Positions 25,010 through 59,689 of a stretch of DNA of 64,000 nucleotides are shown piece by piece. The DNA is from Aphrocallistes beatrix (lineage: Eukaryota > Porifera > Hexactinellida > Sceptrulophora > Aphrocallistidae), in NCBI GenBank assembly GCA_963281255.1, contig OY725493.1, positions 186,001 through 250,000 on the forward strand, written 5' to 3'. The position numbers and the translations under genes are program-made. The notes below the pieces were generated by a model, which was not told the DNA's origin, did no database searches, and saw only the letters and a program-made list of their open reading frames with translations. The first letter of the stretch is position 1; every line of letters starts with the position of its first letter.

Positions 25010-25048
25010 TATTATAATTAGTTTGAATTGTATCTTATATTAGTACAA

Positions 25049-30362: not shown

Positions 30363-30535
30363 CAGTAGAACTCGGTTAGTACGTATTTGGATAATACGTA
30401 CTTCAGTTTAGTACATACTCATTTCTCTGAACCAAAATCCATCTAAAATATAGATTTCTATGTAGTACAAACTATGTAGTACAAACGTACTAATAATTCC
30501 TTCCCGAAGGGGTACGTCTTATCCGAGTTCTACTG
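30363..30535. mobile_element. Pogo-like MITE downstream of GTPase 8
   Basis: Ends CAGTAGAACTCGGTTAGTAC and CCGAGTTCTACTG, TA flanks; same family and position as 25952-26137. Confidence 0.85.
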
Positions 30536-31344
30536 TAATTAGTAAATTGTATTAGTAAAGATTAATAAAATTTTAGTAAATTATATTAGTAAAGATTAAT
30601 AAAATTTTAGTAAATTATATTAGTAAAGATTAGTAAATTTTAGTAAATTATATTAGTAAAGATTAGTAAATTTTCCCCGACGGGGGTTGTAGCCCCTGGC
30701 GCCAACCCTGCCAGTACCCGGATTAGATCTCTCCCCGGACTGTTGAGCTAGAGTCGCTGGGACCTCTGTCCTATGGTTCTATGGTCCTATGGTATTTCCA
30801 GGTGACAGATTGTGGTGGATGGTAACACTCCTCTGACACTTTGTGCCACCTGGATATTTCTATACATTTCTGTTGGATTCACACGTCTTTAAGGGCGACC
30901 CATGTCCTTAAACGGAACATTTTCATTGGATACTGTTTGGTGCTGATTCTTGCTGACACATATTTCCTATTTATAACTATTAATAAGCATTAAGCTAGAT
31001 CACATGGCCAATAGAAAAGTATTAAGCTTGGAATCCGTAAAACAGGACATTCTTATTTCATGTAAAAACGGGACATTGGTAGAAATCAGCTCTACTATTT
31101 GCATGTGTGATAAGCATTAAGCTAGGTCATGAGGTGATTACAGTGTATAGATATTATGTAATATATCTCTAGACACATTTCAGTAACAGGAGACATTTAA
31201 TAGTGTGCGATATAGTATCATATTATCACATAGTGTTCAATGAGTATAATTACCCACCATTCACTGTGTCTAGCTTATCTCTGTGGAATTTGAACGAATC
31301 TTTTAATTCTTTTTCTCTGAAATCTATTCTTAGAATATTTCTTA
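30536..31344. promoter_or_regulatory. Spacer and promoter region of GTPase 9
   Basis: Four to five tandem copies of 'attagtaaattatattagta' at 30536-30690. The gene 7/8 type promoter block lies at 31190-31325 with ttcaatgagtataattaccc (31235-31254; one base differs in the TATA-like box). Confidence 0.6.
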
Positions 31345-33072: not shown

Positions 33073-33698
33073 ATTTTTTCATGGATGTTTTTATTTTTGT
33101 TTGTTTGTTTGTTTATATTTGTTAAATTTTGTTTCAAATTTAAGGTTACACGAAATCCCTCTCAGTTTTATAATTTCATTTTATTTTTGAATTTATCATT
33201 TTCTCCATTTCATGTATTCATAATGTGTAATTGTATTTGAGAATATTCCGAACCCAATTGAGAACTTACATTCAGGAATGTGGAATGTACACATTCTGGG
33301 ATTTAAGAGGTGTTAAACTAATTGCTATACAGTTCGATTTTTGCAAATTTAATTTTAATTACTTTTGTCTTATTTTGAGTATTTTTAATGAGTTTTAACA
33401 AATTTTAAAGAACCAACTTGGAGAGTTCAGTTATGCTCAAGTATTTTGTAATATTTTAACTTCTTAAGTAATATATACATTCCCATTTATAGAGCCGTTG
33501 CTAGGGTCCAGCCTCATACGATCGAAATTTAAAACAATTCAGTTGTTGTTGTTGTTGTTTAAATTTGGTTACTATATCATATAACCCTAACTCTTGTATA
33601 GCAGAAAAACTTAAAATATATTTCAAAAATAAATAATGTTCCACGAAATCTAACCAAATTAGTTCGCCGTAATTAACCAATGAATTCCAGCTGTTGAG
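33073..33698. other. Spacer between GTPase genes 9 and 10
   Basis: AT-rich; (GTTT)n at 33097-33115 and (TTG)n at 33540-33560. No TATA-like block of the type seen upstream of genes 5-9. Confidence 0.5.
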
Positions 33699-37230: not shown

Positions 37231-40200
37231 CTAATTCATCCACCAATTTGTCTTGGCATTAGGCTTTTTCTTATACTTAAGCACTGCATCTGCTATAGCG
37301 TGGTTAGGAATGAGGTCTGAAGAGCGTAGAGGAGTGTGGCTGATAGGATCTGTGTGTGTATTCTCTATGTGCTGTAGAATAGCCTGACGTTCATACGTGT
37401 TACCTTCAGGAGTCATGACAGGATTGTCGAACAGTTGATTTGTGATAAAACAAACTAGAGCTGGAGGATGAGAGACGTTAGAATAGTCTGATTTTATCTT
37501 GAAATCTTCTTCAATTGTAAGCAATGTTTTGCCTTTTAGATTCAAAATTGTAGAGAGACTATTAACTGTCTGAACATACAACTCATTGTACCAAATTGCT
37601 ATTTCTAACACCTTGCTTCTAACTGCATGTGATACGATTGGCTGAGCTAGCATAGAGTGGATTGCATCTAGAATTTGACGGAGTGAGACACTAGGAGAGT
37701 AGTCTTCTATGAGAATAGGATGACATATGTGTCCTGCCTTATCTACGTTAGGATGATAGACCGATGATAGAAATCTCAGTTTAGGCGGGTAATGTGGATA
37801 CTGTTCTCCGAAATACAATTCCAGTATAAATATAGAACCTTCAAAGGGAGAGTGTATTGGTCCTTGCATGAATATTATCCATTTTAGAATTTCATTTTTA
37901 AATGGGTAGAGTCTGCAGTAAGGATTAGGACTCTTAATATAAGCAGTAACTTTATTCAAAATTTGGAGAATAAAGAGATTTATGCCTAGTATCTTACTTT
38001 TCTGATCGCCTGTAGATTGAATCAATTCTTCTGCAGTAGATAGGTTATTCATGAGCTCTTTTGAAATACTTTGATAAGAGCCAGACTTTTCATGAATCAT
38101 ATTTCCTGATAATATATCTTGCAAAATGGCTGAATAGTCACAGATAGGGTGAGGTATAGGGGTGAGGAATTTGATTTCGTTTGATGCAAGTTTTGCCATC
38201 AATTCATCATTGATATGAACTCCTTTAGTTATCTGGGATAGTATTTGTAATTGATGCCCATGTTTGGACATTATTACAGTATTGACAACAAGATTTAATT
38301 CAGAAATTTTGTTTTCTATAGAACTGTGATCATTTCCATATTTAAGACTAGTCTCACCATTTGTAAACAAAAATATTTCTGTTATCAATTCTCTATTAGA
38401 GCTAAGGTATTCTTCAGTACAATATTCTAGTGCATTTAGAATGATTTCTGTATTGATTTGGAAATTTTGAGGAGAAAATTTACTAATATACGTGTATGCT
38501 TTTATTTTCTTTAAAACTATACCGTACTCAAAAGTAGGTCGAATTACTTCCTTAAAGCCCAGCATAAATTCATGATTATTAGAAATGACTATAGCGCCAA
38601 GTAATGACTTAGATTGAATTCCAATTAGAGAGTCTATTAATGTTTCTATTAACATGATGGCAGCATCAATTTTCTTCAATTCGGGATTAGGCCTGTCACT
38701 GGTTTCAGAATATTCAATAAATGTTGAATGCATACCACTACTGATATCTAGTATGATTATAATCTTGGGATAACTGTTTATATTGGATACCTCGAGACGT
38801 TTTGAAATATTAATATCATGAGGATTGTATGAGTAACATTTACCATCTTCTGGAGAGAAATAGTTGAAGTACCCATACCTCCCTTCAGTCCTTCCTAGGA
38901 ACACATAGGGACTAGACAGACCACGAATCAGTGGAAGCATCAGTCCGTATGATTTCCTTTCTTCCACGAAACTCTTGTAAAGCTGTACTGGATGTTGTAA
39001 TGGAAACCTGTGCTTAACTCCTTCAGTGAAATCTTCCAATCTAGTGAGAGGAATATAGCAAAACGCATCGTGTGTGGAAGAGACGTTTCTCCAAGTTACG
39101 ATTGTATATTGGTTGTGAGGGAATTCTTGCAAGAGTCTACGGGTATCGTCATCTCTCGGATTCTCTCGTGTCCGTTTTGAAATGAAAGTAGTTTCGTAGA
39201 TCTCTGTCAATTGTAGATCAGGTGTTAGTGCATATTTTTCTATGTGCATCCACAGCTGTGGAAATTTGGAGATGGTGGGACTATCTGAAGTTGTAGAGAG
39301 AAGAGAAATGGTTGTAATGATGCCTTCATTGATGGCTATTCTGTGTGGTAGAGATGTGGGGGATTGAGTGAATAGGAGATAGAGAGAGTAGACGAGTGGA
39401 GGAGAGCAGGAAATCTTCCTAAGCAGTCCCAGTCTGCTCAATAATCTGTATTTATCTCTGTCCTCTCCGTACTCTCTCACTAAGAAGAGAAGATACGCGT
39501 TGAATGTGTGGAAATCTGGAATGAAGTTAGACGGGTAACATGAAGTGTAAACTGTTTGAAATACACTGAAAGGTTCATTGTTACTATAAGTGTTTGAAAT
39601 TGTGAAAGATAGGTTTCTCTTGTCAATAGATTTCTTTGAAACATCCATGTTATTTAAGGCAATGTGTTGGTTAGTTGGATTGGAGTAGTATATTTTTATA
39701 TAATCGATAGGAATGTGCATATCCATAGATAATTGTATTCCTAAATATAAATATAAATTGTGATTTTTATCGAATTTTAATTCTTTTTTGATGTCGCTAT
39801 CTTTCAGTTGAATGTTGATGACTAATTTCTCGCAATCAATATCACTTTCACATAAATAGTTGTTAAACAATTTCTTAGGATAAGCATATATCAACTCGTT
39901 ATCTCGTAGTCCCCAGTTAGAGAGAGGTTCTAGGTAGATGTTAGGAGTGGGAGCTAGAGGATAACCTATCTCTGAGTACAGTTCTACACTCGTGAAGTTA
40001 ACTCCCTTCACTCCGTCGGTTAAAACCTGACAGACCTTTTGTACAAACTCACAATACTTCATAGGTGTATCAACTTCTATGGGATACTTCTTATTGTACA
40101 TAATTCCTTCTTGATTTAGAAATTTGCAATCTATTTTTAATTTCTTTGAGATGGTCATTTCAGCTTCTTCATGCGTTTTCAATGGGATATGCTCAATAGC

Positions 40201-43200
40201 TAGAACTGAGGAATTAGTTTTTGACTCATCTCTTGATTTTATCTCCTACAAGAAGAGTAAAATCGTAATCTACTTAGGGCGTTCAAAAAGTTCTCATCCT
40301 ACATCTCTATCTCAAATGATAATGAAAATAAGATATTTTCGATTTGTCTACTGTATTCCTTAGGCGATCGGCTTCCAATTTATATTTTGGTTTATTTTAA
40401 AAGGACAATTATTGTGTTTCCTACATTCGATTTTTGTACATCGGTTTAGGGCACTGCCTTTGAACGTGATTATTGGGGTTCCCTTGCTATATTTCAATTC
40501 TGAGCAAATTTGGATTAAAACTGATCCCTCCATCGAATCCCACGCATCAACTAACATATAGATTGAATTCTCTGAAGCATTATAGTTTGAGGCTGAGGGA
40601 ATGCTATGTTTTGAAGTGATTTACTACAATTTTTGTCCCACTTTTTGAGTGGCGAAAATTGACAAAAAATCCACTAAAAGTGGCATGATATTTTTTCAAC
40701 ACGAGCAATACTATTGAACACCTCCCGATTACTTTTTCACATTGGTTCTTAATTATTTCACCTTTTAATGACCTTATTCTACGATTTTCACAACTTTTAT
40801 TCTCCAAATTTAGTTTTAAGCCATTTTCAATGGGAAGATTCCAACTTTTCGACACTACCCTAAACCGATGCATAAAAATCTAATAAAGGAACTACAATAA
40901 TTGTCCTCTTTAAATAAACCAATATATAAATTGGAAGCTGATCGCCTAAGGAATCAATGGACAAATCGAAAATATCCTACTTTCAATATCATTTGAGATA
41001 CAGATTTGGGATGAGAATATGAATGCCCCAAGAATTTAAATCAGAGAAATATAATTTACCGATCAAAAGTCGAAATTCATTCAAGAATTTGAAATTATTT
41101 TCTCAAGGTATACGTATCCATTATACCTACCTTAATAAGCATAAGCGTTAAGAATCACACTAACTTCAAATTTGATATAAACTGAAATGGGATCTCGCTG
41201 GCTAATGAAATTTAGGGTTTTGATATTTCTGTTAACTTTTAGATTATTGTTACAAAAGGCTTAAAATAAATACAACTAAACTTGAAATATGATTGGTTCA
41301 CATGAAGAAAATTAAAATGCATTGCAACAATATTATACGAGTACGTACAGTTTGTCCCATAATTATTGTTATACATAAATTAAGTGTCGACCATAAAGTT
41401 TGTTTTACCATTATATGTCTCTGCCTCTTTTAATTGTTCCAGCTTTTGTTTATCTATTCAGGACTTATATCAAATTCTGTCGGTATTAAAAATTTGATGA
41501 CGCCATTCATAGACTACTTAATATACAGATTGGCAAGTAGCCGAATAAAATAGTCGTTTTATAGTTATAGATTATATACAATATGAGGTAATCAGGTATG
41601 GCGAATCTACTCCGATCATTTTTGAGGTACTTAAGAATGTGGTTTTGTGGTTTAGGCGCTATTTAATAATGACAATAGCATATATACACGTATATACTTA
41701 ATTGGGTGACAGAATATAATATTTCAGATATTGTGTGCTAAAACTGAAGAGCTTATATCTTAGTATTTTACCACTGTTTGGCGCTTATGTTAGAGGTTAA
41801 AGAACAATCAGATATAAATATCAGGGTTTTATACAGAGGGTGGGTACTCAGGGACTTCCCCTCCCAGAATTGTTTCTCCCCCCCCCTAAAATTTGGCCAT
41901 ATACGGTATATACCTGACAGTTATTTAGACATATCTAAATGGTGATGTATACGGTAAATGGACTGAAGTTCCCCCCCCCCCCCAGCAAAAAATTATGTAT
42001 CAAACCCTGAATATCATTATGCATTTTGTAAATTTAATACCATATTTAAACAAAATAGGTGATTTACAAGGTACTCTTTACATTCAAATTTTTATATCTG
42101 TAAATTAATAACTTAATATTCACGAGTTTCTTCTTCACCTTGCCCAATGTGCTCAGATCACTTTTTCTTTAGGGAATTATGGCTTTATTATCACACATTA
42201 AATGTTTCGTGCTCAAAGGGACCCCTTTACTAATTTTCGTACATTTTTTATTATTAGATAGTGCCTCAAGCATGGGTTTATCTAGGATTTTCAATCAGGC
42301 ACTTTTTTGGATGTGATAAAAGTTATATGGCACCCAAACAGTGGTTTATCTTGTAATTCCAGGGGTAATAGCGACCAGGGATAAAAATCGAATCACACTG
42401 CAAGCACCTTGGCTCCTCGGACGATACAAGGCTGGCACCTATAAGTGCCGACCGAGCACCCAGATAAACCTCTGCTCACAAGTGTTCAGTAGTCAACTAA
42501 TTCTTTCGTAGGCGCCTTAAATAGGGGCGGCCTTCAGTTACCCTCTTCGGTCCTCTACAGTTATGTAGAAAGCTCATTTTGTGTTGTTCAATGCTTACAA
42601 ACAAATATTCTTGCTACCATGTTGCCATTGAAGATTCTTATTTATCGTCTACTTGAAGCCATGTCAAACCAATGGGATACTACCTTTGCTTGTGACTCAC
42701 ATTATCTTAACCTCCGAAATAGAACAAACTCAATCATTGCAAACCTCTACTTAACTGGACTTTCAAAGGAAATCAGTGAAACAAGGCGTAAAGATCAGGT
42801 GGAATCATTCAAGGCTAACAAGCGGAAAAAGAATGCATAGTGAATTTGTGACACATTATACAAGTAGTTTTGTTTTGTAGAATTGTGTTGTACCTCGTTC
42901 ATAGACACTTAATATTAAGTAGTCTATGGATATATGTATCTGAATACTCAGTTCAAACTAGCTCTAGCATACAGTATCTGAAATATTATATTCTGTAACA
43001 CCCAATTAAGTATATACGTATATATATATATGCTATCATCATCATTAAATAGCGCCTAAACCACAAAACCACATTCTTAAGTACCTCAAAAATGATCGGA
43101 GTAGATTCGCCATACCTGATTACCTCATATTGTATATAATCTATGACTATAAAACGACTATTTTACCAGAGAGAAAAAATTCAAAATTGGCCTCTCTTTT

Positions 43201-45243
43201 TTTCTGAGTTTCGGCTACTTGCCAATCTGTATATTAAGTAGTCTATGAGCCATTCATTTTTGAAATCTCGATGACTTCATCACTCCAATCACAATTTCTC
43301 TTATCTTCAATATTTATAACTTTTTATGTTGAATAATCGTTTTATTCATGTGATATTAGATACAATGACTCAAGAGGAGAAAAAGGAAACAAATAACAAC
43401 ACTTCTGAACACTGGAATATTATGCATTTCAAAAATTTCCAAAGATGTCGGGGTGTCTCGGCTCACTGTATATCGTGTGAAGAAACGTTTGAAGAGAATG
43501 GACCTTTGAAACACCAGAAAGGTGCAGGTAGACCATCAAATGTTAGGAATAAAATCAATCAGCATGACAAACAGAAGCCAGTTTGTGAAATTGCATCAGA
43601 AATAAGCCAGAAGCGAGGTTTGAAGGTGTCTGAGAGCACTGTCTATCGGTGCTTGAAAGACATGCTTGAAAGACATTGCCAAGCGTGTCCCCATGCTATC
43701 TGAAAAAAACAGGCTCTTTAGGATGGAATGGACTAAACAAAATATGAATAAACACTGATATCGTGCTGTTTTCAGCGACGAGGCTTCTTTTTGGCTACGA
43801 AATGGAAAGTTACGAATGTGGACAAAGGGTAAGAAAACTTCCATTATTCCGACGGTGAAACATTCACCCAAATTGCATATTTGGGCTGCTTTCTCATCGA
43901 TGGGCACCTTTTCTTTATGTGTTTTCACACGAAACTTGGATGGTCAATTCTTTGTTGAAATACTCAAGTGGCATTTACTCGATAGCATTCCATGGGGATA
44001 GTTGGATTCTCATTCAAGATAATGACCCCAAACACACATCTCGTGTGGCGAAGACATGGATGTGTCAAAATATGAAGAAACATATGATGGATTGGCCCAG
44101 TCAAAGTCCAGACATCAATCCTATTGAGAACTTATTCGCATGGCTAAAACAGAAGTTACCGAGGAATTGTTTTCGAACTTTAGAGGAACTTAAGTCGGAG
44201 CTGCTCGAACTGTGGGAATCTATAACTCCGAAGTTCTTAACCATATTACAAGTCAATGAAGTGCAGATAAGTTAGTCATAGAAAATAACGGGTATAGTAT
44301 CAATTTTTGAACAATACCGTTCTGGTAATAAGATTAATGCATCATTACTTCAAAATATTATGTTATGTTGGAATTTGAAGGGATTTAGTCAGCGTCTCGA
44401 GTGTAACAATAATTATGGGACAAACTGTATATAGAAATTATAGACTCGATCGAGATCTCCATGATTCCTACATATATGGTAACCATTTACAATGCACATT
44501 TTGTGATCTATGAGCAACTAAATGGAACTGCACTTATAGTTGACTGGAATGTGTTTCGGTGGATGGAGGACTTACAATCCTACGAACTATAACCCAACAC
44601 TTCCATATCCGCCCTGTCAGAAATACAGTCTATAGTAGTTACAGGTAGTAAGTGTTAAATAGTTAATATATTTTAGGAATTAATCTGACTCCTGAACATG
44701 CAAAAAAGTGTCTCCATTTAATCGGAACACTTTGGTCCCGTATATTTTTCCTGTTTAAGCGGAGTTAACTTATATTTTATTGATTTTTCTGGGTACTAGA
44801 GCAAAAGAAATTGAGGGACTATGGTTAAATTATAATAAAATTGGCCCATTTCCAGGAACCTTGTCACCTGGACCCTCTAGGATGCTTACCGTACCTTCCA
44901 GACCCCCAGCTGAGTTTTCGGCGTTTCAAACAAACACAATGCCATGAACAACTGCCCTATGATAAATATCCTAGATCTGCCCCTGCTACTACTTGTGTAG
45001 ACCCGCTTTTTGTCTACTGTAATAAAATGATTAATTTACCTCTAAAGTTGTTTCACAAAGGAGGACAAATCTCTTGACTTCAATCGATGACATTCCAACG
45101 CTTTTTATCAGAAAATCTTGATTGGTAAGAAATCTCCGAAATTCCGATACATCTTTCACGTAGCACAAACCATCTCTTTTGAAACATTCTCGATACTCAG
45201 TCAAGCCGACATTTTCCAAAAACAAATCAATATCATCAACCAT
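37231..45243 (-). CDS. SAM / Ubl-like / vWA / UBC (E2) / U-box (E3) protein A
   Basis: Exon 1 is 45243-45040 (68 codons) and exon 2 is 40245-37231, joined in phase 0 (GAG|GTAAAT ... cttcttgtag|GAG), giving 1072 residues. The first exon is SAM-like (DLFLENVGLTEYRECFKRDG). The big exon holds a possibly ubiquitin-like N-terminal region, a vWA fold starting IIIILDISSGM, a UBC domain (EGSIFILELYFGEQYPHYPP, then YHPN and Cys eight residues after the Asn in GHICHPIL) and a U-box (NPVMTPEGNTYERQAILQHI). E2 and E3 modules are thus in one chain. The vWA metal site is degenerate (DxSxG; FTNG instead of xTDG), so it probably does not bind metal. The protein likely adds ubiquitin to unknown targets. An AATAAA signal lies just past the stop. 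The 4.8-kb intron is filled by transposons. The exon link is inferred. Confidence 0.82.
40277..41028. mobile_element. Foldback element in intron of gene A
   Basis: Arms of about 175 bp (GGGCGTTCAAAAAGTTCTCA... and its complement ...GAATGCCC) are inverted and about 85% alike by eye. No ORF; target duplication unclear. Confidence 0.78.
41348..44427 (+). mobile_element. Tc1/mariner-like transposon with decayed transposase and nested insertion
   Basis: Ends are CAGTTTGTCCCATAATTATT and AATAATTATGGGACAAACTG, with TA on both sides. Transposase lies at about 43366-44278 on the + strand in several frames. It shows a helix-turn-helix part (VSESTVYRCL), FSDEASF, then QDNDPKHTS and DWPSQSPDINPIENL, i.e. 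a DDE triad with about 35 residues between the second D and E by my count. It is interrupted by stops and frame changes (for example after PHAI at 43703 and near 43760 and 43998), so it is inactive. The left half is taken up by another element (41507-43248). Confidence 0.88.
41507..43248. mobile_element. Element with long inverted repeats nested in the Tc1-like transposon
   Basis: Terminal repeats of over 230 bp (TCATAGACTACTTAATATAC... and complement) enclose about 1.25 kb. The flanks gccat (41502-41506 and 43249-43253) form a 5-bp target duplication. Inside, a 73-residue frame (42619-42840) has a basic C-terminus (KDQVESFKANKRKKNA) that I do not recognise. Class uncertain. Confidence 0.75.
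44428..45039. other. Remainder of gene A intron
   Basis: No coding frame recognised. A pogo-like end motif (ctgtttaagcggagtt) lies at 44750-44766. Confidence 0.45.
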
Positions 45244-45449
45244 TGAAATACAATAATCCTATTACATATTCTTCATATATCCAATAATACAAGTATATAT
45301 AACTTTATATCCCTTTTGATAAATCCCTTATGGTAAAAATAGGTACATAGATCAGATATCATTTGGCTTCTATATAACCTTTTAGTGAGAGTAGGTAATA
45401 CTTGTTGAATTTAACATCAATTCAGAAACACTCGATATATTGTAATCAA
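45244..45449. promoter_or_regulatory. Putative bidirectional promoter between two SAM exons
   Basis: Only 206 bp separate the divergent start codons at 45243 (-) and 45450 (+). TATA-like sequences occur in the middle (tatataactttatatcc, 45296-45313) and nearer the + gene (ttctatataacctttta, 45368-45384). Part of this region (45263-45360) is copied at 57851-57955. No transcription data were seen; the role is inferred from position. Confidence 0.6.
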
Positions 45450-48400
45450 ATGGCAACGAAAGATTCTGGAATAACTCTACAGAAATTTCTCGCTGATGCA
45501 AGGCTTGAACCATACAAGAAAACATTTGAGGAAAACAATATTAAATGCATAGATGATATAAGTGGTGTAAATGAAGTATTTCTGACTACAGTAATCAAGA
45601 TGAATAGCGAAGAAGTAAACTGCTTTTTAAAGGAAAGAGGTGAACTATTTAGGCATTTGGTAAGTTTATTTTTCTTATACTTTTGGCATATTATCGTATT
45701 TTGAATAAAAACTACGTAAACATTAAGTATTAGAAGCTAAAATATACCATGAAATATCAGATCATTTCAAAATATATACGAGAAACTTTGGGTAGTTTTA
45801 ACAAGTATTCTTCAATATGAGATTGATACAACAAGGCATTTAGGAATATATTAATGCGACAACCTCAGAATCTTGAAACTTGAATGAACTCCAGATTGTG
45901 ATTATCAATATGAAATTATCTGTCACTTTAACTGCCAAACATAAATTTTAGAAGCGTGTTTCGCTTGCTAGCTCTGTGTGGCTAGCGAATATTTTGTGTC
46001 TGCAGAGACACCCTATGGGCACCCGAGGGTATATTCTTCAAATTAGATATTTTAAAATCTATACTCATCGTGCAAAACTTGATGTTGTTAGTGTTGTCAA
46101 TCTACTAAATCTACTCTTAACGTATTCTAAATATCATCCTGGTTGGTGGACTGGTTTCAGAGTTATTGCATGTTTGCTCGGTTATTGAATAATTGTTTAA
46201 TATAAAAAATTGTTTAAAATGTCATAATATGGAGTCGTATAAGTGTCAGATTGTGTTACGTCAAAATAACTCAAACAATCAAAGCTAGTACAGTAGAGTT
46301 CGCTTATTAGCAAGTTTTTTCAGTGCACAGAGCAAAGGTATAGGGATTTATGTGTAAACAAGTTCGCTTAATAACAAGTTCGCTTATTAGCAAGTTTTTT
46401 TAAGGTCCCAATGGACCAAAATGTATTAATTATGTTCGCTTATTAGCAAGTTTTTAGAAAAACTTGCTAATACACGAACTTTAGTTTGTTTATTAAGAAG
46501 AAAACTTGCTAATAAACGAACTTTTAGTTCGTTTATTAGGAAGAACTTGCTAATAGAGATTATTCTTGCATATTATGTATTAATTAATTTACATTCTTCA
46601 ATTTGGAGAAAATTGTGGTTCTTTTGAATAGAGTAGAAAGTTTCGTAAGTATTATACCGTAGAGTTCGCTTATTAGCAAGTTTTCTCGAGCAAAACCCGA
46701 CTTGCTAATAAGCGAACTCTACTGTATCATTGTGTTCTAAATGCCATCCAATTGCTCCGCTAGTTCCAAAATTATTGCATCTTGTAGTGTTCTTCGATCA
46801 TATGAGGAAACGACGAAAATTGTTTAAATATTATAAGCCTTATGTTAGCAGTTGAAAGCTAGTTTCTAGAATCTTTTCAAAATTTGTTAAAAGGTGTGAG
46901 AATATACATCTAAGCTTTGTTTCCTAAAACTATGATAAAATTAATGTAGTATGTTACAGTCAATCTGTATAAGCAGCCATTTTGCGTAATGCCTCAAAAC
47001 CTCAGCCATTTCATGTTATAACTGAGACCCTTAGTCATTACATGAAATGCCTAAAATGTTTCATGAATTGAAATAATACAGGAATGTCTCCTTCTCAAAA
47101 TGACCGTTTCGAAATTTTTTTAAGCCAGTTATGAAGATTCAACCTCAAAGGTTAGCCAGCCATAAAATAAGCATTTTTAGTGCAGCTACTAGTAAAGGAG
47201 ATGACTTATGTCAGATCGGTATGCGACTTACGTATGTACGTCTGCTTACTCCTGGAAATTATATTGACCAAATTGCACAGAATTTGGATTCTTATATGGC
47301 GGAGGTTTGAATCTGGGTCTAAATTATAAAATATTTTCAGACCTTTCCACGAAACGTGTCAAAATGTATTAGCCAATCAGAATCCAGGGATTTAACATTA
47401 CAACTGGCTTGATTATGTTGATAAATAAGGATTACACATAATTCAATGAACGTATGAAAACGTGTAAACATTGCCAATTTAGCGTTCCCTCACTCTTAAT
47501 GGGTGCGAGATGGGACCATCCTCACTTTTCAGAAGCAGATTGTCCAACGTTTGGTCAGTACCTAGTCGGGATTTTTGATCGAGTAGCCGGCAGCCGAGGA
47601 CAAAACCCAAATATAAAAACTAGAGGATCCTGGAGTATGTTCCTATCCGGATTTTCTTCCATCTGGAGGCCCTGAAGCACCATTTCCAGGACTCTCAGAT
47701 AATGTACAAGTATATTTCAAAAAAGTTTAATAAATCGTTTTGTCATTTCACGCTTGTTTCTCATTGGAAACATCATTGTAATAAAATTCTCATTATTCTT
47801 CAGATATATTCACTTAAGCATATTAAAAGCCAGTCTAAGTTTGCACTCATTATTGAAATAATTGAATTCACTAGTCTTTGTTGATATGTTTACCACATCG
47901 TTCAATATTTAGACAATTGTGCACTATATATGACTAAAATTCGACTATACATGCAAAATTGGGATTTTCCCATCTCGACCGAAGTTGTGTCCGGATTCGT
48001 GGTTTTAAAACAAAATCGGGATGGTTGGACACTCTGCAGAAGTATATTACTATACGGTATACTACATAACCATGGATGTTTTGTAGAGTAGAATTCTGAG
48101 ATTAATATGTAGATTATCCGTAAAACCTTGAGATTTTGTTTCACTCACTCAAATGACCTTTTGGTTCAACCGGTTCTATCATAACTTGATAACCATCGCC
48201 ACTAAATAATGTCACACGACTCAATTTGATGGAACTCGACACAGTTTGATGGTACTCGATATAATTTAGTGGCATGTGACACAATTTACTTGGTAAAACC
48301 TCATATGGACCCAGTGGCTTAAAATGGCAGTTAGTAAAGAATGTACAATAGCACCAAAAAATTATTATTTACATATGGGTTATCGATAGCTAGAAATCGT

Positions 48401-51400
48401 TTGGCGATGCCAAAATTACTGTATGGCCTCTATTCTACACGTTATGACGTCATCATGACGTTGCCTAATTTTTATTATTAACCGAAATCGCATCAATATC
48501 GCTTTCAGAAATTAATCTAACAAAAATGTCAGATAAATTTGCTTCAAAGCTAATCTTTCTTGATAAATGTTCACGATACTTTCGGATAAGCTTGTTGCAT
48601 GATTCGGATCCTTCTTCAGATATACTCTTTTTAAGTCCAAAACCAGAATTAGAATCTCTGATAAGTTCATCGTCGATAAGTTCAATAAGTTCAATCAAGT
48701 TAAATCTCCGATAAGTTCAATCTCTGAAAAGTTGAAGTAAATTGCTGATTGGATACTGAATTCGTGTGACTTCAATATTTTTGCCAAATCAAGTCTGGTC
48801 TTGGGGATCTCACGATCATCTGCCATTATGGGAAAATCTCAAATTTGTGTCTAGAATTTACGAATATGATATTCCTTATTACATTATATCAGCTATATAT
48901 TCGACACTGGAAAATAGAAGAATCATAATTTGCGGTTCAAAGATAACATTGAATTGCATAGTTACCAAAATGGATTAAAGAATTTCCATAGCAACCAAAT
49001 AATCTCAATGGAATTTATTCGAAATTTTCATTTTGCGCACGCACCGGATACTGTAAGTTAGCACACTCGTTTAAAAGGGGTGCATGCATTAATTCGAATC
49101 TGTATGTAGGCGTTAGTTCGAATCCTGTATGTAGGCGTTAGTTCGAATCGAATTCGGCTATGTGTAGGCGTTAGTTCGAATAGAATTTAACTATGTGGGC
49201 TTTGGTTCGAGGCACAAGCATTAGTTCGAATTTCAAAGTAGTCGTTAGTTCGAATCGAATTCTCAGTAGAAAATGCTGCTTTTCCCTCCGTTCTTATAAA
49301 TAGTTTTCCTTAATGGCACTCAACTACCCCCTTCGTTCAGAAATGCCTTTTTCATCCTCAATTTTCTACTATTCTCAGCAGAAATTGCTGCTTTTCCCTC
49401 AGTCCTTATAAATATCTCTTCCCAAATATTATCCTTTTTTAAATTTACGTTAATTCCGAATTGGATTCGAACAAATGATTGCATTAACAAAGTCGATTCG
49501 AACTAACGCCTACATACAGATTTGAACTAATGCAGCCCCCCCGTTTAAAATACAATAATTGATTGCCCAATTTTGTATTTCCATTGCATTTGTCTGCATA
49601 AATATTATTTCAGCTTGTCTGAATTTTTATTTTTATTTTAATTCAATATATCTAATTCGTTGTTTTAAAATCCAAATATCTTAAATAAAAGTATCAAAGA
49701 TAAACAGAAATGGACAAGAAATTCAGATTCAGGATACTAAAATTATCTATAGTAGAGTTACAGCACACTGAGACTATCCTTACTATTAAAACTCGATTAT
49801 TGTTTGTGTATATATATATATATATATTAGGGTGCTCCAAAAACACGGAAGTTTGAATCAATAGACGTGCACTATTGAAATATTTTACTTTGATCACCAA
49901 GTATTCACCATAAAATTTTCATGCAATTTGGAGATAGTTTAGTGGTCGCGCAGAGTAGCTTCCTCCTCGTGCTCATTTATAATGGGATATGTCCGGGTTG
50001 GGGCCAAAAGTTCTAAAAGGCGTATTTCCGATAATACATTTTAATAACCTAAAGTCTACCAATTCCGATATATTGGCGAAAACAGTTGGAACCAGCATTC
50101 ATACTCACAATTATTAATGGTCTAAACTGTTTTCACCAATATCTCGGAACCGGTAGCTTCTAGGTCATAAAAATGTATTATTAGCTGATATAAAACGACC
50201 CCCAAATATCACAAAAATAAAGTTACTAGTTTATTCAAACATCAGAAATACACCTTTTACAACTTTTTGACCCCAACCAGGACATATCCCATTATAAATT
50301 AGCACGAGGAGGAAGCTACTCTGCGCGACCACTAAACCATTCCCAAATTGCATGAAAATTTTATGGTGAATACTTGGTGATCAAAGTAAACTATTTTAAT
50401 AGTGCGCATCTATTGATTCTAACAGATTCTAACCGTGTTTTTTGGAGCACCCTAATATATATATATATCTGTAACGAATTGATTGAAGAAACTGCCGGGC
50501 GTAGAAAGCTGATTTTTGGCATGTGGGCGTCCTTTGGCTATGGCTCCAGGAAGTTCTGAGCTCAGACCAAAATGTCGACTCATCATGGAATTATGACGTC
50601 ATTGTCACATTTTTAAAAGTTAAGCAACACAGTTATTCGGGCATAACTCAGCCATTATAGGAGATAGAAGGCTGAAATTTTAATAGAACTTGTATACTAA
50701 CACGCCTCACATATGATGCAACTATCAAAAATGACGACTCATCACTTTGTTATGACGTCATCATTACTCATCAAAATTTTAAAATTGACAAATTTGGTGA
50801 TTTTTCGAGTGATATCGATTTTAAACTAAGATGTACATATTTAGAGATGATATCTCCCTTATAATTAACCAATCTCACCTCCAGGCGACCGAAGGGAGCC
50901 TCCGGCGGACACAAAGTGTCCGCCACCCGCGCAGCGCAAGCAAGCGAAGCGCGCTTGTAATTGTAAAGTTATAATGACACGTGTTGAATTAGTTGCAACA
51001 TTTCAAAATCACCAAACTACGATTGGGAACAAAAATTCTTGAGATATTGAATGCACTTTTCGTATATTTATAAGCTTTAGGTAGATTAAATACTATAAGT
51101 TTGGGACAAACTAACGACCAATTATGATATCCAAACATTGAAAAACATAAACAAAGACCAAAAATTTCTCTATTCCCTGCTACCAAGCCACTGTGCATGA
51201 ATGAATTTTATTTTGCATTTAAAATCCATTTGGGGTTTATCATAGTAAATTGTGCCGCGTAGCACAATTTGGTGGCGGTGGTTATTAGGGCATTGGGATC
51301 TTTAGATCCATGATCGAAAGATCCGGATCGCGATCCTTTTTAAAAGTATGATCGGATCGAAACTTTGACTGAATTCGATCAGATCCTTTTTCTTTTTAAT

Positions 51401-54400
51401 CCCCAAGTTGGAAGCGAAAGTGTTGAAATTTATGTTGATTAAATACATTTTTTAATGTGTTTTATGGTTTGAATATTAACTTAAGCACTAAGTACGCCCC
51501 AGGATGCCGCAGAGGGACGGACATTGCACGCCTTCCATGCCAAATGGCATCTCATTCCAGGTACTAACAATGATAGTCCTCTGACTATTATTGAAAGGAT
51601 CTTTTTGGGGATCGTGATCGGATCGAAGAACCTTTTATAAGTTAAGATCGGGATCTAGATCTAGATCTTTTTTTTGAGGCTCGACAAATGCCCTAGTGGT
51701 TATCAAGTTACGATGAAACCGATTGAATCATTGGGCAATTTGAGTAAACGTGACAAAATCTCACGATTCTACGGATGATCTCAGAATTCTACGCTACAAA
51801 ACCATCCATGGTTATATAGTATAAGAATCTCAGATCTACGCAACAGATCTCAGGGGAGGATCATTTTAAATATACTTATGCATTAAATGACTGACACGCC
51901 AAAATACATGTCTTATTTCGCCAAATTGATATTTAGTTTTATATTAGCAAATTCAAACTTCGTATACATAGCCGAGAAAAACGAGGGTTCACTCGACATG
52001 GATCACCTAAAATGGCTGAGTTATAGTCGAAAAACTGAAATTTCTAATTATAAAAAAGGTGACAATGACGTCATCATTCCATGATGAGTCGATATTTTTT
52101 TACAATTTAATGATTTTCCAGTAATGCAAATTCGACCTGTATAATCCGACAATTTTTGATACATTTTGGGAATAAGACAATCACCTGTATATAACGGTCA
52201 TCTATGTATACCGGCCAATTTTGTTCAGTCCCGTGGAATATCCCTTTCGCACCTACTTATTTCTCAGTCAAAATCTCTCATTTTCATCCCTTTTTTCAAA
52301 CATACTCCACTCCAAAGGCCTCAACTTTCGTTCCCTTTCTCATTAGTACCTGTTTATTTAATCTCTAATGAGGCGAAATTCTCGTGAAACAGAGAACTAA
52401 TGTTCATACGACGAAATTCCCGTGCGACGAAATGTCCGTTTACCACTAAATGGAGCTTCACTATCAGTCTGTCAACCGACATTTTTACTTTTAATCATAA
52501 AAGGCATTTTTAGCAAATTCGAAACAGGTCATCTTGAGAGAGACAGTTCTGCTTCGTTATAAATGAAATGGGTTTTTTTACACTATTAACGATAAACATT
52601 TTTTGAGTTAAAGTGGCACTGAGGACTTTAGGTCAGGATTTTTATGAAATTTCAATTCAAAAATTCTTGGACCAAGTAGTTATATTTAGTTAACAATAGT
52701 CATCCTAAAAATTATGCGTGTTTTTTGGAGTGGAATTTTGTAATTCCGTCGACTTTGCCTTAATTTGACCGTAACCTTTCTCTTGAAATATTTTGAATCT
52801 GAAATAACTATGAAGCTTCTTGGTAGTTTGGTTTACAACAACTGATTTAACAGCTTCAATTGTTAAATAATATTCTTCTTTGGGCGTCAATATTTTTTCA
52901 GGATAATTTTTATCATAAATTTCGATCTTAAACTTTTGTTCGCAAAAATAATATATGTTGCTGAGACTCCAATATGAAGCCCATTTATAACCGGGAAAAT
53001 GCTATATATTAACTGTTGCCTGTCGAGGGAAAGCTGAATCTGTTCTATGCATGAGTCGCCTGATTCTGTACAGCGATATTACCGGAATCTGTCCTACGAT
53101 TATTTCGAGTTCGGAATCTGTCCTACGATTATTTCGAGTTCGGAATTTGTCCTACGATTATTCCGAGTTCGGAATCTGTCCTACGCCTGAGTTCGGAATT
53201 TGTCAGGGTTGCCATAGGAATAGAATTTCAAAACCCATTCCCATCCCATTCCCACAGGATATCAGTGGGAATACCCACAAAAACCCACAGAAAAACCCCA
53301 CAAAACCCACTGGAAAACCCACAGGAACCCACAGAAAAACACAGAACCCACATTTGAGAATGCCCATAGGCTTAAAGTCATTCCTATTCCCATCCCATAT
53401 GGGAATCTGTCGGTTTGCCTATGGGTATACCCACAGATTCCCATTCCAGATTCCGAACTCGGAATAATCATAGGACAGATTCCGAACTCGGAATAATCAT
53501 AGGACAGATTCCGAACTCGAAATAATCGTAGGACAGATTCCGAGCTCGGAATAATCATAGGACAGATTCCGAGCTCGGAATAATCATAGGACAGATTCCG
53601 AACTCGGAATAATCATAGGACAGATTCCGAACTCGGAATAATCGTGGGACAGATTCCGAACTCGGAATAATCATAGGACAGATTCCGAACTCGGAATAAT
53701 CGTAGGACAGATTCCGAACTCGAAATAATCGTGGGACAGATTCCGAACTCGGAATAATCGTAGGATAGATTCCGAACTCGAAATAATCGTAGGACAGATT
53801 CCGAACTCGAAATAATCGTAGGACAGATTCCGAACTCGAAGAATTCGAATTTGAGGTTAAATTAAGCGTATCTCTTACCAATTAAATACCTTGACTCGCT
53901 AAATAAATCAGTATTATAACTATTTGTATGGAGAATTATGGGGTGTACGAATACTTTTGTTCAGGCAGTGTAGATACTTGGTCTCCTCATAAATATTTTT
54001 TATGTCCAAATTCCATTCATCTCACATTAATGATTTGCCCGAAAATTCCATTACATATAGAAGGAAAAAGGTACTTTATGTATTTTAGATGTATTTAAGG
54101 TATTTTAGATGTATGCCACTATATACTTGTATAAAGTATGGTCAACAAACTAAAACTAATTTTAATCTTGTGAAATTATGATCTTAATCAATGCAAAGTT
54201 TGTTGCAATAATTACGATATTTTAATATAGGCTCCATCATCTCTGGATGTATCTAATGAAGCCTATGAAATGCAAAAGAGAAGAACTGCGCTTGACATTC
54301 AGTATCAGCTGTTTACGAACCTAGCTCCTGAAAAGAAACGAGTAGGACCTTTCAACACTGATCAAATCCTGTACTGCGACCTAGTTAACATTATATGCAA

Positions 54401-57400
54401 TCAAGAACGAAATGAGTTGGGAGAAGACATGACGGTAGAACTGTACACCTGTGAAGGGTACCCATTAGCCACTAGACCTATCTCCTACATAAGCAAACTG
54501 TCCGACTGGTGTCTTGAGGAGTATCCTGACCCTCCTCTACTCTATGCTGTTCCTAGACTTAAATGCTATACTGATAAGTGTACACAGTACATGACGGCAG
54601 CTCCTCTCTGTGATGGAACTGATTCTATCTTCATTCGGAATAAAGAATGCGGATTCAATATGAATCAAATCCGAACTAATTGCAAACAGGGCACGTATTT
54701 CCAGTTAATAAAGAGAATACAGGACATGATAGGAATTCCAGGTCATCTTATCCATTTGAATCTAGGTGAAAAAGTGATTGAGTCATCTACTGATGCCACA
54801 TTATATGAACTAAATATTGTGAATATGTCTGCCCTAGAGATAAAACTCAACGAACATTTCTGGACTCTAGGGAAGGATACAAATCTTACGGTCAATGAGT
54901 GTAAACCAACTTGGTACCAGGAACAAGGTACTTTTGGGACTTCTTTCTTTTTCAGCTGTCTCTACTCGCTGGCTGATTGGATGGCAGAAAATAACCAGGA
55001 ATCAACTGAAAATAACCAGGAATCAACTGAAAATAACCAGGAATCAACTGAAAATAGCAAAGAATCATCTGTAAATAACCAGGAATCATCTGAAAATAGC
55101 AAAGAATCATCTGTAAATAACCAGGAATCATCTGAAATATTTAATAGAACATTAGGACATATACGCAGTATTATAGGATGTCCTCCACTAATCGATGCAC
55201 TCGGTGAATTATTTATACAAGCATTTCTCACCCTTCCACACATAGTTGCTATTCAGGAGTGTTTAATTTTACTATTCAAAATGATGAAACCTAAAACACC
55301 GAAATTACACTTGCCCAATTTGGATGTCAGAAATTCGGAAAAAGTAACAGAATATTCAAATTATTTTTGGGTTTATTTGGTTGACAGTTCAACACCTGGT
55401 CACAGTCAATCAGAACAATACTCCACATTCAAACTCACCTGCAGTGAAACCTACCAGCGCATGACAGATCCTGTGATAGTAAAGGATGTCAATGGAGTGG
55501 AACACATCCTTGAACAAACTAAAGTGAGTACTGAGATCATTGTTAAGTATCTCTACAACTATAAACGTATGCTCAAGTGTTTCATTGGAGATGAGGCAGT
55601 TGTATGGAATTGCATTAGCGTTCCTACTTGTGGGATTGACTTAACTGGAGAATGGCAGAATCTTGTCAAGAAATGTAAGAACTATCCAGCACTCTGTGTC
55701 CAAGCACCTCTTAACGTTAAATCCCCTCAATGTCGTAGGCCATCCATGATCCCCACTGAAAACGGGAATATCGGTGTCTACATAGTTAGTTCTAAAGATG
55801 TAAACAAGCCCCATATCTACTATGAAGTTATAACTGGACAATCCATCTTATTCGATGCTCAGGAATTGGATAGAGATGTTAAAAAAAATAAATTTCTTAT
55901 CAATAAATTTGGCAATGATTGGCAAACATTACCAACAAAAGTCAAGGGTCAGGGTTTAGAAGTCATCACTCGCGATCCAGAAGAGATTATAATGGTCATT
56001 CTTGACACCAGTGGATCAATGGATTGGCCTTATATGGATGGTGAGACTAAGTCTCAATCAGCACATAAGGCATTCAGTGCTTTCTGCGATCGTACAATTG
56101 CCTATGACTTGAAACATGTAATCGGACTAACTTTGTTTGCGAAAAACTGCTGTTTACAATATCCTCTTTCTGAAAACTTCCGAGAGTTCAATGATCAGTT
56201 TGGAAACCTCCCTCCTGCATCGCATACAGCAATTTACGTCGGGATAAAATTCGCAGTTGAACAGTTAAATATATTCACAGCAAAATACCCGAACTATAAA
56301 GAAGTACCTCGTAGAATCTTGTGTTTGACAGATGGCGCTAACAATTATTCAAATTTTACACCAACAGAAGCAACTCGGTTGCTGATAAATAATAATATTA
56401 AGATGGATTGTGTGCTATTATGCACGGAATATGTAGACACACATGCTATTGCAAAGGCTAGTGGAGGATATTCGTTTAAACCAGAAAGCTCACAGGAGAT
56501 GTTAACCATATTTGAGCAGGAAACAATGTTAACAATGAAGACTAGACAACATTGCACAGCGGCTTTCCTTCCAGGAAAAAGAATAAAACTTAAAACACAA
56601 GCTACCAGACCAATTGATAAGGATCCACTTCATTTACTTCCTGAAAAGATGACCATAAAGGTCCAAGTAGCAGATAAGTGTCTTACTCGTGCTCTTATCC
56701 AGAAGCATCTTGCTACTCAAACTAAAGCTAACTTAACTAAGAGAATCTTGAAAGAACTTTCTCACTACCAAACAAATCCTCATCCAGCTTTTGAAGTGTT
56801 CCCTGGAGAAGAGCACATTGACTTCTGGAGGATTATAATGGAAGGACCAGAAGGTACTCCTTACGAAGGAGGAATATTTGAATTGTTCATTGAGTTCACT
56901 AACGAATATCCAGCCAAACCACCTAACATCAGATTCATCACACCTATCTACCATTGTAACATCAACAGTTCAGGACGAATTTGTCATTCAATCCTGGATA
57001 GGTTCTATGCCCCCGGGGTGAGGGTTAGGGACATATTCAACCACGTGTACGGACTCCTCATTGACGCAGTGCCTGATGATCCATTGGACAGTGTGAAGGC
57101 TGCACTGCTACGCGATGATAAGACTAAACACTTGTATTTGCGGAATGCTAGACATCACGTTGAAAAAAACGCAAAAAATCAGACTAAGATTGATATTCGC
57201 ATTAAACTTCTTGGATGCGAACAGAAAGTTCAAGCAGAATACCAATCATTCTTGATATGTCCTATGACACTGGAACTTTTTAAGGACCCAGTTATGACAC
57301 GATATGGCGACACATATGAGAGAGAGGCTATTGTGGAGCATCTGAGAAGTGGGAAGAATTATGATCCATATACTTTCAAAAAGCTGACTGTGGATAACTT

Positions 57401-57473
57401 ACATCCGAACAAGACAATAAAGAACCTTGTAGCTGGAGTTAAGCTAGACATTGAGAAGGGAGGTCAGATATAG
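45450..57473 (+). CDS. SAM / Ubl / vWA / UBC (E2) / U-box (E3) protein B
   Basis: Exon 1 is 45450-45659 (70 codons) and exon 2 is 54231-57473, both phase 0 (TTG|GTAAGT ... ttttaatatag|GCT), giving 1150 residues. Exon 1 is SAM-like (LQKFLADARLEPYKKTFEEN). Counting from the ATG at 54270: a ubiquitin-like segment (about 118-193; GIPGHLIHLNLGEKVI), eight NNQEST/NSKESS-type repeats (240-289), vWA (573-755) with complete MIDAS (DTSGS, Thr653, LTDG), UBC (820-965; YHCN and catalytic Cys905 in GRICHSIL) and U-box (992-1058; KDPVMTRYGDTYEREAIVEH). His-Pro-Asn of E2 is His-Cys-Asn here. It is a paralogue of gene A in divergent orientation. It probably acts as a combined E2/E3 ubiquitin enzyme in the cytoplasm or nucleus. 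The 8.6-kb intron, made largely of transposons, makes the exon link an inference. Confidence 0.82.
45940..46230. repeat. Diverged hairpin-repeat relative, duplicated at 58900-59180
   Basis: gaagcgtgtttcgcttgcta and following sequence resemble the GC-rich end of the hairpin-bearing repeat. The segment is copied downstream as part of the duplication. Confidence 0.55.
46291..46724. mobile_element. Pogo-like MITE, TA insertion proved by empty site
   Basis: Ends CAGTAGAGTTCGCTTATTAG and CTAATAAGCGAACTCTACTG with TA on both sides. The duplicated copy of this region (around 59235-59250, aaagctgtatcattg) lacks it. The interior repeats 'gttcgcttattagcaagttt' several times. Confidence 0.92.
46725..48049. 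other. Gene B intron, no recognised gene
   Basis: The first part (to about 47230) is the source of the duplication at 59250-59680. 47235-47340 resembles 16215-16350. Open frames near 47454 and 47702 have no recognisable domain. Confidence 0.45.
48050..48310. mobile_element. Half copy of the palindromic GTTGCGTAG family
   Basis: Matches one arm and part of the centre of 19929-20426 (ccatggatgttttgtagagt, then aaatgaccttttggttcaac and cgacacagtttgatggtact). The other arm is missing. Confidence 0.7.
48311..49067. other. Gene B intron, no recognised gene
   Basis: A minus-strand frame (48698-48465; EGSESCNKLIRKYREHLSRK) is open, but I cannot assign it to a family. Confidence 0.35.
49077..49541. 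mobile_element. MITE with 9-bp target duplication and GTAGGCGTTAGTTCGAAT repeats
   Basis: Inverted ends (GGGGTGCATGCATTAATTCG ... CTAATGCAGCCCCCC) are flanked by CGTTTAAAA on both sides (49068-49076, 49542-49550). The left arm has four to five tandem copies of 'gtaggcgttagttcgaat' and the right arm a complementary copy. A 9-bp duplication suggests a Mutator-like origin. Confidence 0.82.
49775..50957. mobile_element. Hairpin-bearing interspersed repeat, copy 3, split by a foldback element
   Basis: Reverse orientation relative to 13485-14050. The tail (ttactattaaaactcgatta) is at 49779-49799. The body runs 50460-50957 and ends with hairpin GGCGGACAC-aaa-GTGTCCGCC (50904-50924) and CAAGCGAAGCGCGCTTG. 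The (TA)n tract between them took an insertion (49829-50453). Confidence 0.8.
49829..50453. mobile_element. Foldback element nested in the (TA)n tract
   Basis: Ends AGGGTGCTCCAAAAACACGG and ...GTGTTTTTTGGAGCACCCT. The arms extend over 200 bp (gtggtcgcgcagagtagctt and its complement are in each). No ORF. The target duplication is masked by the TA repeats. Confidence 0.82.
51220..51844. mobile_element. Composite: palindromic element with nested hAT MITE, copy 1
   Basis: The outer element is of the GTTGCGTAG family (right end atctacgcaac at 51844). At 51286-51695 it holds TAGGGCATTGGGATC...AAATGCCCTA, flanked by GTGGTTAT on both sides (8-bp duplication). The same nesting is found at 59690-60195. 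Confidence 0.82.
51845..53060. other. Gene B intron, no recognised gene
   Basis: Only a fragment of the hairpin-bearing repeat (gtgacaatgacgtcat, 52060-52100) is recognised. Open frames are short and unlike known proteins. Confidence 0.4.
53068..53200. repeat. 29-bp tandem repeat, forward array
   Basis: About four copies of 'tcggaatctgtcctacgatt' plus 9 bp, the reverse complement of the array at 53450-53838. Confidence 0.85.
53205..53447. repeat. AC-rich simple-sequence block between two inverted arrays
   Basis: Built on 'aacccacagaaaaaccca' and 'cccattcccatcccatt'. Its two ends are complementary (ggttgccataggaa... / ...cctatgggtatacc), so it looks like an inserted or rearranged palindromic unit. 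Confidence 0.7.
53450..53838. repeat. 29-bp tandem repeat, reverse array, about 13 copies
   Basis: Unit begins attccgaactcggaataatc and continues with 'atAGGACAG', 13 full units plus a partial. Variants alternate catagg/cgtagg. Since 3 x 29 bases is 29 codons, the array has long open frames that are not genes. Confidence 0.93.
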
Positions 57474-58403: not shown

Positions 58404-59689
58404 TGTAATCAAATGGCAACGAAAGATTCTGGAATAACTCGACAGGGATTTCTCGCTGATGCAGGGCTTGAAGCATACGAGAATACATTCGAGGAAAACA
58501 ATATTAAATGCATAGATGATATAATTCGTGTAAATGAAGTATTTCTGACTACAGTAATCAAGATGAAAAGTGAAGAAGTAAACTGCTTTTTAAAGAAAAG
58601 AGGTGAACTATTTAGGCATTTGGTAAGTTAATTTTTCTTATACATATACTTTTGGCATATTTTCGTATTTAAAATAAAAACTACGTAAACATTAAGTATT
58701 AGAAGCTAAAATATACCATGAAATATCAGACTATTTCAAAATATATACGAGAAACTTTGGGTAGTTTTAACAAGTATTCTTCAATATGAGATTGATACAA
58801 CAAGGCATTTAGGAATATATTAATGCGACAACCTCAGAAACTAAAATGGACTCCAGATTGTGATTATCAATATAAAATTATCTGAAATGTGAATTTAACT
58901 GGAAACATAAATTTTAGAAGCGTGTTTCGCTTGCTAGCTCTGTGCGGCTAGCGAATATTTTGTGTCTGCAGAGACACCCTAGCCGGTATATTCTTCAAAT
59001 TAGATATTTTAAAATCTATACTCATCGTGCAAAACTTGATGTTGTTAGTGTTGTCAATCTACTAAATCTACTCTTAACGTATTCTAAATATCATCCTGGT
59101 TGGTGGACTGGTTTCAGAGTTATTGCATGTTTGCTCGGTTATTGAATAATTGTTTAATATAAAAAATTGTTTAAAATGTCATAATATGGAGTCGTATAAG
59201 TGTCAGATTGTGTTACGTCAAAATAACTCAAACAATCAAAGCTGTATCATTGTGTTCTAAATGCCATCCATTTGCTCCGCTAGTTCCAAAATTATTACAT
59301 CTTGTAGTGTTCTTCGATCATTTGAGGAAACGACGAAAATTGTTCAAATAAATTTAAATATTAGAAGCCTTATGTTAGCAGTTTAAAGCTAGTTTCTAGA
59401 ATCTTTTCAAAATTTGTTAAAATGTGTGAGAATATACATCTAAGCTTTTGTTTCCTAAAGCTATGATAAAATTAACATATGTATGTATGTTACAGTCAAT
59501 CTGTGTAATCAGCCATTTCATGTAATAGCTGAGACCCTGAGTCATTACATGAAATGCCTGAAATGTTTCATGAATTAAAATAATTATCACAGAAATGTCT
59601 TCTCAAAATGACCGTTTCGAATTTGCTATGAAATGTATGAAATGTTAAAGGAAATGACTTATGTCAGAAGGAAAACATCATTGTAATAA

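Follow-up and report, generated by a model that had tools for sequence, protein, structure and literature searches.

The 64-kb stretch of contig C7 of the glass sponge Aphrocallistes beatrix analysed here, hereafter the window, contains two divergent genes that each combine a ubiquitin-conjugating (E2) UBC domain and a ubiquitin-ligase (E3) U-box in one protein. With a probability of roughly 0.6, these are E2/E3 hybrid ubiquitin enzymes of an ancient animal family, the glass-sponge branch of which would have split into lysine-competent and thiol-only partners. The domain content is well supported, and ubiquitin would presumably be transferred within the chain. The minus-strand gene has its large second exon in open reading frame (ORF) 1 and the plus-strand gene in ORF2 (Table 1), and the sequences resembling them are called the minus type and the plus type. 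The genome searched amounts to 100.5 Mb in 28 contigs.

Both large exons matched the Pfam profiles UQ_con (E 6.5e-28 in ORF1 and 5e-33 in ORF2) and U-box (4.9e-14 and 1.2e-14) above the cut-offs, in agreement with a sequence-only reading of this DNA that had placed both domains in each exon, and by the latter matches both genes group with the U-box E3s at the profile level. Both frames have the UBC fold with the catalytic Cys eight residues past the conserved Asn, which places them with the E2s by fold and sequence and is the spacing given by that reading. The HPN motif is present in the minus gene and replaced by HCN in the plus gene; this was not taken to deny E2 membership, because the Asn is kept and the motif varies in some accepted E2s. 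The U-box motif DPVMT..GxTYER had been ascribed to both genes and is that of ORF2, while ORF1 reads NPVMT..GxTYER. In the part from UBC to U-box, ORF1 and ORF2 are 31% identical over 242 residues (BLASTP). Of 176 sequences, 162 have a tail of at least 55 residues, and in these the linker between the two domains measures 19–29 residues (median 22). The AlphaFold2 (AF2) model of ORF2 had a pLDDT of 86.3 and a pTM of 0.79.

Residue conservation was counted in UBE2D2 numbering. For the plus gene 280 relatives were found, and taxon statements and residue counts rest on the 120 listed, the animal-wide group included; 35 relatives were found for the minus gene. These sets include the window's own protein and proteins of the same genome, some apparently from the same contig. 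Among the plus-gene relatives, Cys76 of the HCN motif occurs in 119, Asn77 in 118, His86 in 117 and Asp117 in 116, and the catalytic Cys85 is present in 116, the others being two gaps, one Tyr and one Gly. The minus-gene relatives have Pro76 in 31 of 35, Cys85 in 33 (two gaps), Pro87 in 33 and His117 in 32 (two gaps and one Lys). Pro87 and His117 are thereby found in all 33 and all 32 relatives, respectively, that have a UBC residue there, the lone Lys117 belonging to a protein in which Pfam detects no UBC domain.

UBE2D and UBE2E were among the closest UBC domains in the PDB by profile and by fold, and the ORF2-type UBC differs from them in having HCN in place of HPN, a His directly following the Cys, no Phe62 and an altered 94–96 loop. 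The minus type, with His for D117 and Pro for D87, resembles UBE2L3, which carries Pro at 87 and His at 117 when aligned with these sequences; this likeness is one of working only. UBE2L3 shares with the minus type the Pro at Cys+2 and the His at the D117 position, but is a single-domain E2 with a Phe at the docking position, whereas the minus type is fused to a U-box. A role in thiol-only behaviour is assumed here for Pro88 of UBE2L3. According to the available part of PMC5095918, His119 of UBE2L3 corresponds to D117 of UBE2D1, the residue that orients the substrate lysine, and UBE2L3~Ub is reactive toward thiols only. From its Pro/His pair the minus type is therefore predicted to transfer ubiquitin to thiols only, and as such it would donate ubiquitin to an acceptor cysteine or serve as a partner of the plus type and not be a free-standing lysine ligase. 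Among the matches listed, HCN for HPN, the lack of Phe62 and the Pro/His pair of the minus type appear to be new observations.

Named relatives of the plus gene among the matches listed come from Oopsacas, Amphimedon, Oscarella, Saccoglossus, Glandiceps and many teleosts, and those of the minus gene are all from Oopsacas, the rest being unnamed. The nearest named relatives among these matches are those of Oopsacas minuta, class Hexactinellida, and one A. beatrix paralogue shares 80% identity with a protein of Oopsacas across 1163 aligned residues. UBC and U-box were both found by Pfam in all eight relatives scanned. The named fish, hemichordate and sponge proteins share with ORF2 the HCN motif and the order vWA-UBC-U-box, which is constant across these members, at 35–57% identity over the matched part of the queried half, and several have SAM or UBL (ubiquitin-like) domains in front. 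Some fish forms, such as P0054, differ from the window genes in an extra N-terminal RING; the B-box matches of P0054 were below the cut-off. Recurrence of the same domain order elsewhere, one of the checks that the earlier reading proposed, is found in these relatives, and 15 frames of the A. beatrix genome hold both domains.

That separate genes were joined by an artefact of gene prediction or assembly, or by chance, was rejected as having a negligible probability, since each large exon is single and uninterrupted and the identical order recurs both in numerous independent database entries and in proteins derived from transcripts. Two of the latter from other species, P0027 and P0028, span SAM through U-box, and a further one, P0034, is among the matches listed; separate transcripts are not supported. 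Of the two outcomes that the sequence-only reading named as refuting, failed profile matches and domains split between transcripts, neither was encountered in this material. P0027 and P0028 (eukprot TRINITY_DN182) are isoforms of one assembled transcript gene, 91% identical overall with differing SAM ends, which may be alternative exons, paralogues or assembly chimeras.

A tree of 40 proteins (18 of the 21 family frames of A. beatrix and 22 chosen relatives; midpoint root) had three groups. The first is animal-wide and holds sponge, hemichordate and fish members together with the A. beatrix copies on C1 and C11 (support 95/89, partly unresolved), the second holds the plus type with the C2 copies (100/99) and the third the minus type with the C14 copy (100/100). 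Long-branch warnings apply to the C14 group, Amphimedon, P0155 and P0041. Alignment A1 took in 74 of the 120 plus-gene relatives and A2 33 of the 35 minus-gene relatives, P0151 and P0153 being left out. Both domain content and the tree place the minus type with the hybrid family. In Oopsacas, LOD99_14351 (plus type) and LOD99_14352 (minus type) have consecutive locus tags. When contigs of equal length were equated, 11 of the 24 contigs with a minus-type match were the same as one of 30 plus-type contigs (P0001–P0043), the window's own included. Within glass sponges the family appears to have divided into these two types, which often co-occur.

The remaining domains were less uniform. A vWA domain had been claimed for both genes and is clear in ORF2 (VWA_2, E 2.9e-8, above the cut-off), but ORF1 is divergent and had no vWA match in the Pfam scan. 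Its vWA-like segment lines up with that domain in relatives, strands and helices alternate in the predicted structure at residues 446–641 of P0121 in the vWA-like part of the minus type, and at the metal site DISSGM and TNG replace DTSGSM and TDG. The top 50 structure matches of the ORF1-type model were UBC-bearing chains only, a result that leaves the vWA fold unconfirmed and excludes nothing; the VIA structure list, filled by vWA and UBC and without U-box or UBL folds, excludes nothing either.

SAM, also proposed earlier for the fused proteins, is not found in the large exons; SAM-like sequences are present in the small first exons, where Pfam was weak for the plus gene (SAM_2, E 0.0037, below the cut-off) and gave no match for the minus gene. 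The minus exon was reached by a SAM profile of clear family members at E 6e-4, the best of 2200 shuffled controls being 0.014. The plus exon is linked to the family only via related array exons (tblastn E down to 2e-8), and taken alone its putative SAM assignment is weak. SAM was above the cut-off in P0057 and C1_7376k, in contrast to the window exons.

Pfam matches to 'ubiquitin' were found in P0057, P0112 and the C11 and C1 copies but not in ORF2 itself, and a profile of the family's second UBL matches ubiquitin in the PDB. The first and second UBL segments gave a weak profile match (hhalign 7.0). The inner U-box-like domain, a new observation here, matches the family's C-terminal U-box with an hhalign probability of 97.2 (E 2.8e-11), and six control pairings, which set the inner or the C-terminal U-box against UBL and vWA segments, gave 1.3 or less.

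A profile search of the A. beatrix genome gave 28 U-box matches. The 15 open frames with both UBC and U-box are 916–1162 residues long; ten are on C7 at 223–390 kb, in an array of 170 kb, and the others on C2 (two), C11, C1 and C14. The C7 array holds 16 of the 28 U-box matches, and several of its copies are fragmentary or interrupted. The catalytic Cys is found in 18 of the 21 family frames, with Tyr in one, Gly in one and one frame cut off there. Selection was assessed by a simple pairwise count of nonsynonymous to synonymous divergence (dN/dS) on paralogues, in which pairs with too little sequence, a dS of 0.01 or less or a saturated dS were dropped; 8–21 of 21 pairs were kept for the plus type and 15–36 of 36 for the minus type. 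Median dN/dS was 0.17–0.49 in 13 of 14 domain sets and 0.75 in the remaining one, and the family is mostly under purifying selection. The median dS of paralogues was about 0.2–0.3 in UBC against about 1.1 in vWA, on partly different pairs. This low UBC dS suggests gene conversion among C7 array paralogues of one type, and it makes single ratios unreliable.

In a separate array on C1, at 11.66–11.95 Mb, 29 UBC matches were observed. At its locus L029 (C1:11910001-11920000) the UBCs have the pattern TPNGRF, presumably that of UBE2J enzymes, one of them inside a frame of 1708 residues, and an IBR-bearing frame is located upstream. The C1 array may be another E2 expansion, adjoining a putative RING-between-RING (RBR)-type gene.

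E2s and RING/U-box E3s usually meet briefly and in many combinations. In the proposed mechanism, family members would have the architecture SAM - UBL - UBL - degenerate U-box - vWA - UBC - U-box, the minus type lacking the inner U-box, which is absent from it in the A4 alignment. The ubiquitin-activating enzyme (E1) would load ubiquitin onto the UBC Cys, and the U-box about 20 residues behind the UBC would activate E2~Ub within its own chain or on a neighbouring chain held by SAM. The interface of fused U-box and fused E2 would be co-evolved and not canonical, and vWA, UBL and inner U-box may select partners or substrates. The plus type would act on lysine targets, as it has kept the lysine-transfer features (the Asn of HCN and Asp117), and the minus type on thiol acceptors by its UBE2L3-like pair. 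As an E2 and an E3 locked together by nature, with the docking face remodelled, a family carried by many fishes would offer a way to ask what the interface needs, and the divergent pair of lysine type and thiol-only type a direct and cheap test of labour division in ubiquitin transfer.

Several observations weigh against the hybrid reading. Phe62 was found in none of the 155 listed relatives (three gaps) and none of the 21 A. beatrix frames, and Pro95-Ala96 in just five of the 155; F62, P95 and A96 of UBE2D are taken to form the face that docks RING/U-box domains. Few sequences have Arg where CHIP has R272 (9 of 117 plus-gene relatives with tail, 2/27 and 0/18). Given the altered docking face and the rare Arg272, canonical in-chain transfer is not a given, and activation of the fused E2 by the fused U-box may depart from the usual mode. 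The thiol-only prediction leans on two positions. The plus SAM-like exon reached only E 0.24 with the family SAM profile, within the shuffled range. Of seven plus-type array copies, two have Tyr or Gly instead of the catalytic Cys and another ends prematurely at that point, and single-pair dN/dS exceeded 1 in four of 14 domain sets, up to 3.78.

The docking positions are also consistent with fused domains that do not act on each other, the U-box recruiting a separate E2 and the UBC serving another E3 or ubiquitinating its own protein, the main rival, which is judged unlikely though deserving serious consideration. On the U-box the positions that presumably face an E2 are kept, with a hydrophobic residue at CHIP I235 in 113 of the 117 plus-gene relatives with tail (Leu in 108) and Pro at CHIP 269 in 116, and 8v0d, an engineered UbcH5B-RING fusion, can be superposed on both domains only at a root mean square deviation (rmsd) of 12–15 Å. 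The short linker, however, keeps UBC and U-box close, and their order is unchanged in sponge, hemichordate and fish members. The combination of E2 and U-box in one protein, put forward by the sequence-only reading, is conserved across animals; the transfer within one chain that it also suggested would have to proceed over an altered docking face.

Fragments or interrupted copies in the array (C7 268k-, 290k-, 297k-, 375k+, 376k- and 390k+), the Cys85Tyr and Cys85Gly changes in two long frames and two further long frames with UBC but without a U-box match (311k- and 346k+) could point to a birth-and-death array whose members are decoys or pseudoenzymes, that is, regulatory or decaying copies. 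This is considered improbable, as both domains are kept in 15 long frames, the catalytic Cys is kept in both window genes, median dN/dS is below 1 in all 14 domain sets and the family is conserved in distant animals.

A more far-reaching version of the hybrid reading, held to be a long shot, is that the head-to-head pair forms a ubiquitin relay from minus type to plus type by transthiolation and that the array is a defence or self-recognition arsenal. The acceptor would be the catalytic Cys of the plus type or the near-invariant extra Cys of its HCN motif, and SAM pairing and a shared promoter would keep both genes in step. Such a relay, if true, would pass ubiquitin from one E2 to another between two E2/E3 hybrids.

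UBE2O is an E2/E3 hybrid, and neither it nor BIRC6 is known to be a U-box protein or to have a comparable vWA or SAM architecture. Like them the window genes would have E2 and ligase activity within one large protein, a likeness in working only for which homology is not claimed. BIRC6 is called an atypical E2/E3 combination protein in the available part of PMC12919000, and UBE2O, UBE2Z and BIRC6 are listed as E2s inside larger multidomain proteins in that of PMC11354881. Of the U-box proteins treated by Marin 2010 (PMC3087547, in part), WDSUB1 has SAM and Monosiga Mb_UBOXa has vWA; none of the seven animal U-box families given in its abstract is the E2/E3 family, and the term UBC is not found in the available text. 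Title listings contained no study, functional or other, of the E2/E3 family, and the word ubiquitin was not found in the available main text of the Oopsacas (PMC10280926) and Aphrocallistes (PMC10282587) genome papers. The earlier statement that no animal pathway of this architecture is described agrees with this search, but three listed fish proteins (P0078, P0097 and P0099) already bear the name 'putative bifunctional E2/E3 enzyme R795'.

The link to mimivirus R795 rests on these database names and on one structure match. Hokovirus A0A1V0SEK3 aligned with the ORF2 model over 1379 columns (E 7.2e-37 in BFVD, the next viral match being 7.9e-10) at 15% identity, an rmsd of 23.3 Å and a template modelling (TM) score of 0.34–0.41. 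The low TM and high rmsd indicate that the domains match in order and not as a rigid body. On the strength of this model comparison, the E2/E3 architecture may possibly have been exchanged between giant viruses and eukaryotes. Three scans of viral contigs for a fused relative yielded a single locus, L030, with a UBE2D-like E2 of 155 residues that lacks a U-box, and no fused viral relative was therefore obtained by sequence. In the available part of PMC11915834, which treats giant-virus U-box proteins, the terms 'R795' and 'von Willebrand' are absent.

The first exons of the two genes are arranged head to head (Table 1), and the 206 bp between their start codons would be the shared region of divergent promoters. 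Predicted acceptors are an AG at 54229-54230 directly before the ORF2 exon, in phase 0, and a TAG at 40248-40246 (minus strand) for the ORF1 exon. Another head-to-head pair of SAM-like exons is present in L017 (4939-5151 minus and 5413-5574 plus). The second copy of the plus SAM-like exon probably belongs to the next plus gene of the array.

Table 1. Positions of the two genes and their domains in the window.
Feature	Position	Strand	Remarks
ORF1, large second exon of minus gene	37231..40245	-	1004 residues; N-terminal segment, vWA-like, UBC, U-box, stop
C-terminal U-box of ORF1	37264..37467	-	Pfam
UBC (E2) of ORF1	37564..37941	-	HPN; catalytic Cys 37723-37725; Pro at Cys+2; His at UBE2D D117 position
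vWA-like alpha/beta domain of ORF1	38179..38766	-	From alignment and secondary-structure prediction; reduced metal site
SAM-like first exon of minus gene	45040..45243	-	68 codons, phase 0, donor GTAAAT; predicted splice
Interval between both start codons	45244..45449		206 bp
SAM-like first exon of plus gene	45450..45659	+	70 codons, phase 0, donor GTAAGT; predicted
ORF2, large second exon of plus gene	54231..57473	+	1080 residues; UBL, UBL, inner U-box, vWA, UBC, U-box, stop
First UBL-like segment of ORF2	54291..54560	+	Putative; beta-grasp-looking in predicted secondary structure only
Second UBL of ORF2	54621..54848	+	Pfam 'ubiquitin' in relatives; predicted structure
Inner degenerate U-box-like domain of ORF2	55413..55583	+	hhalign against family's C-terminal U-box
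vWA of ORF2	55974..56549	+	Metal site DxSxS/TDG looks intact
UBC (E2) of ORF2	56742..57128	+	HCN motif, Cys 56955-56957; catalytic Cys 56982-56984
C-terminal U-box of ORF2	57249..57431	+	Pfam
Second copy of plus SAM-like exon	58413..58622	+	86% identical, same donor

Within the predicted long intron of the minus gene a DDE_3 transposase remnant, which looks Tc1/mariner-like, is located at 43859-44275 (plus strand), and the frame beside it at 43320-43703 had no Pfam match. Retroelement-like pieces are found at 62495-64000 (minus strand), one frame having an integrase-core match below the cut-off. A tandem row of two-exon small-GTPase-like genes occupies 16666-35505 (plus strand), with a double-cysteine tail in most; Ras/Roc was matched by Pfam in the three exons, of two genes, that were checked. 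A single frame of 1353 residues at 7702-11763 (minus strand) has LRR, EGF, GPS and secretin-family seven-transmembrane domains and is an adhesion-type receptor.

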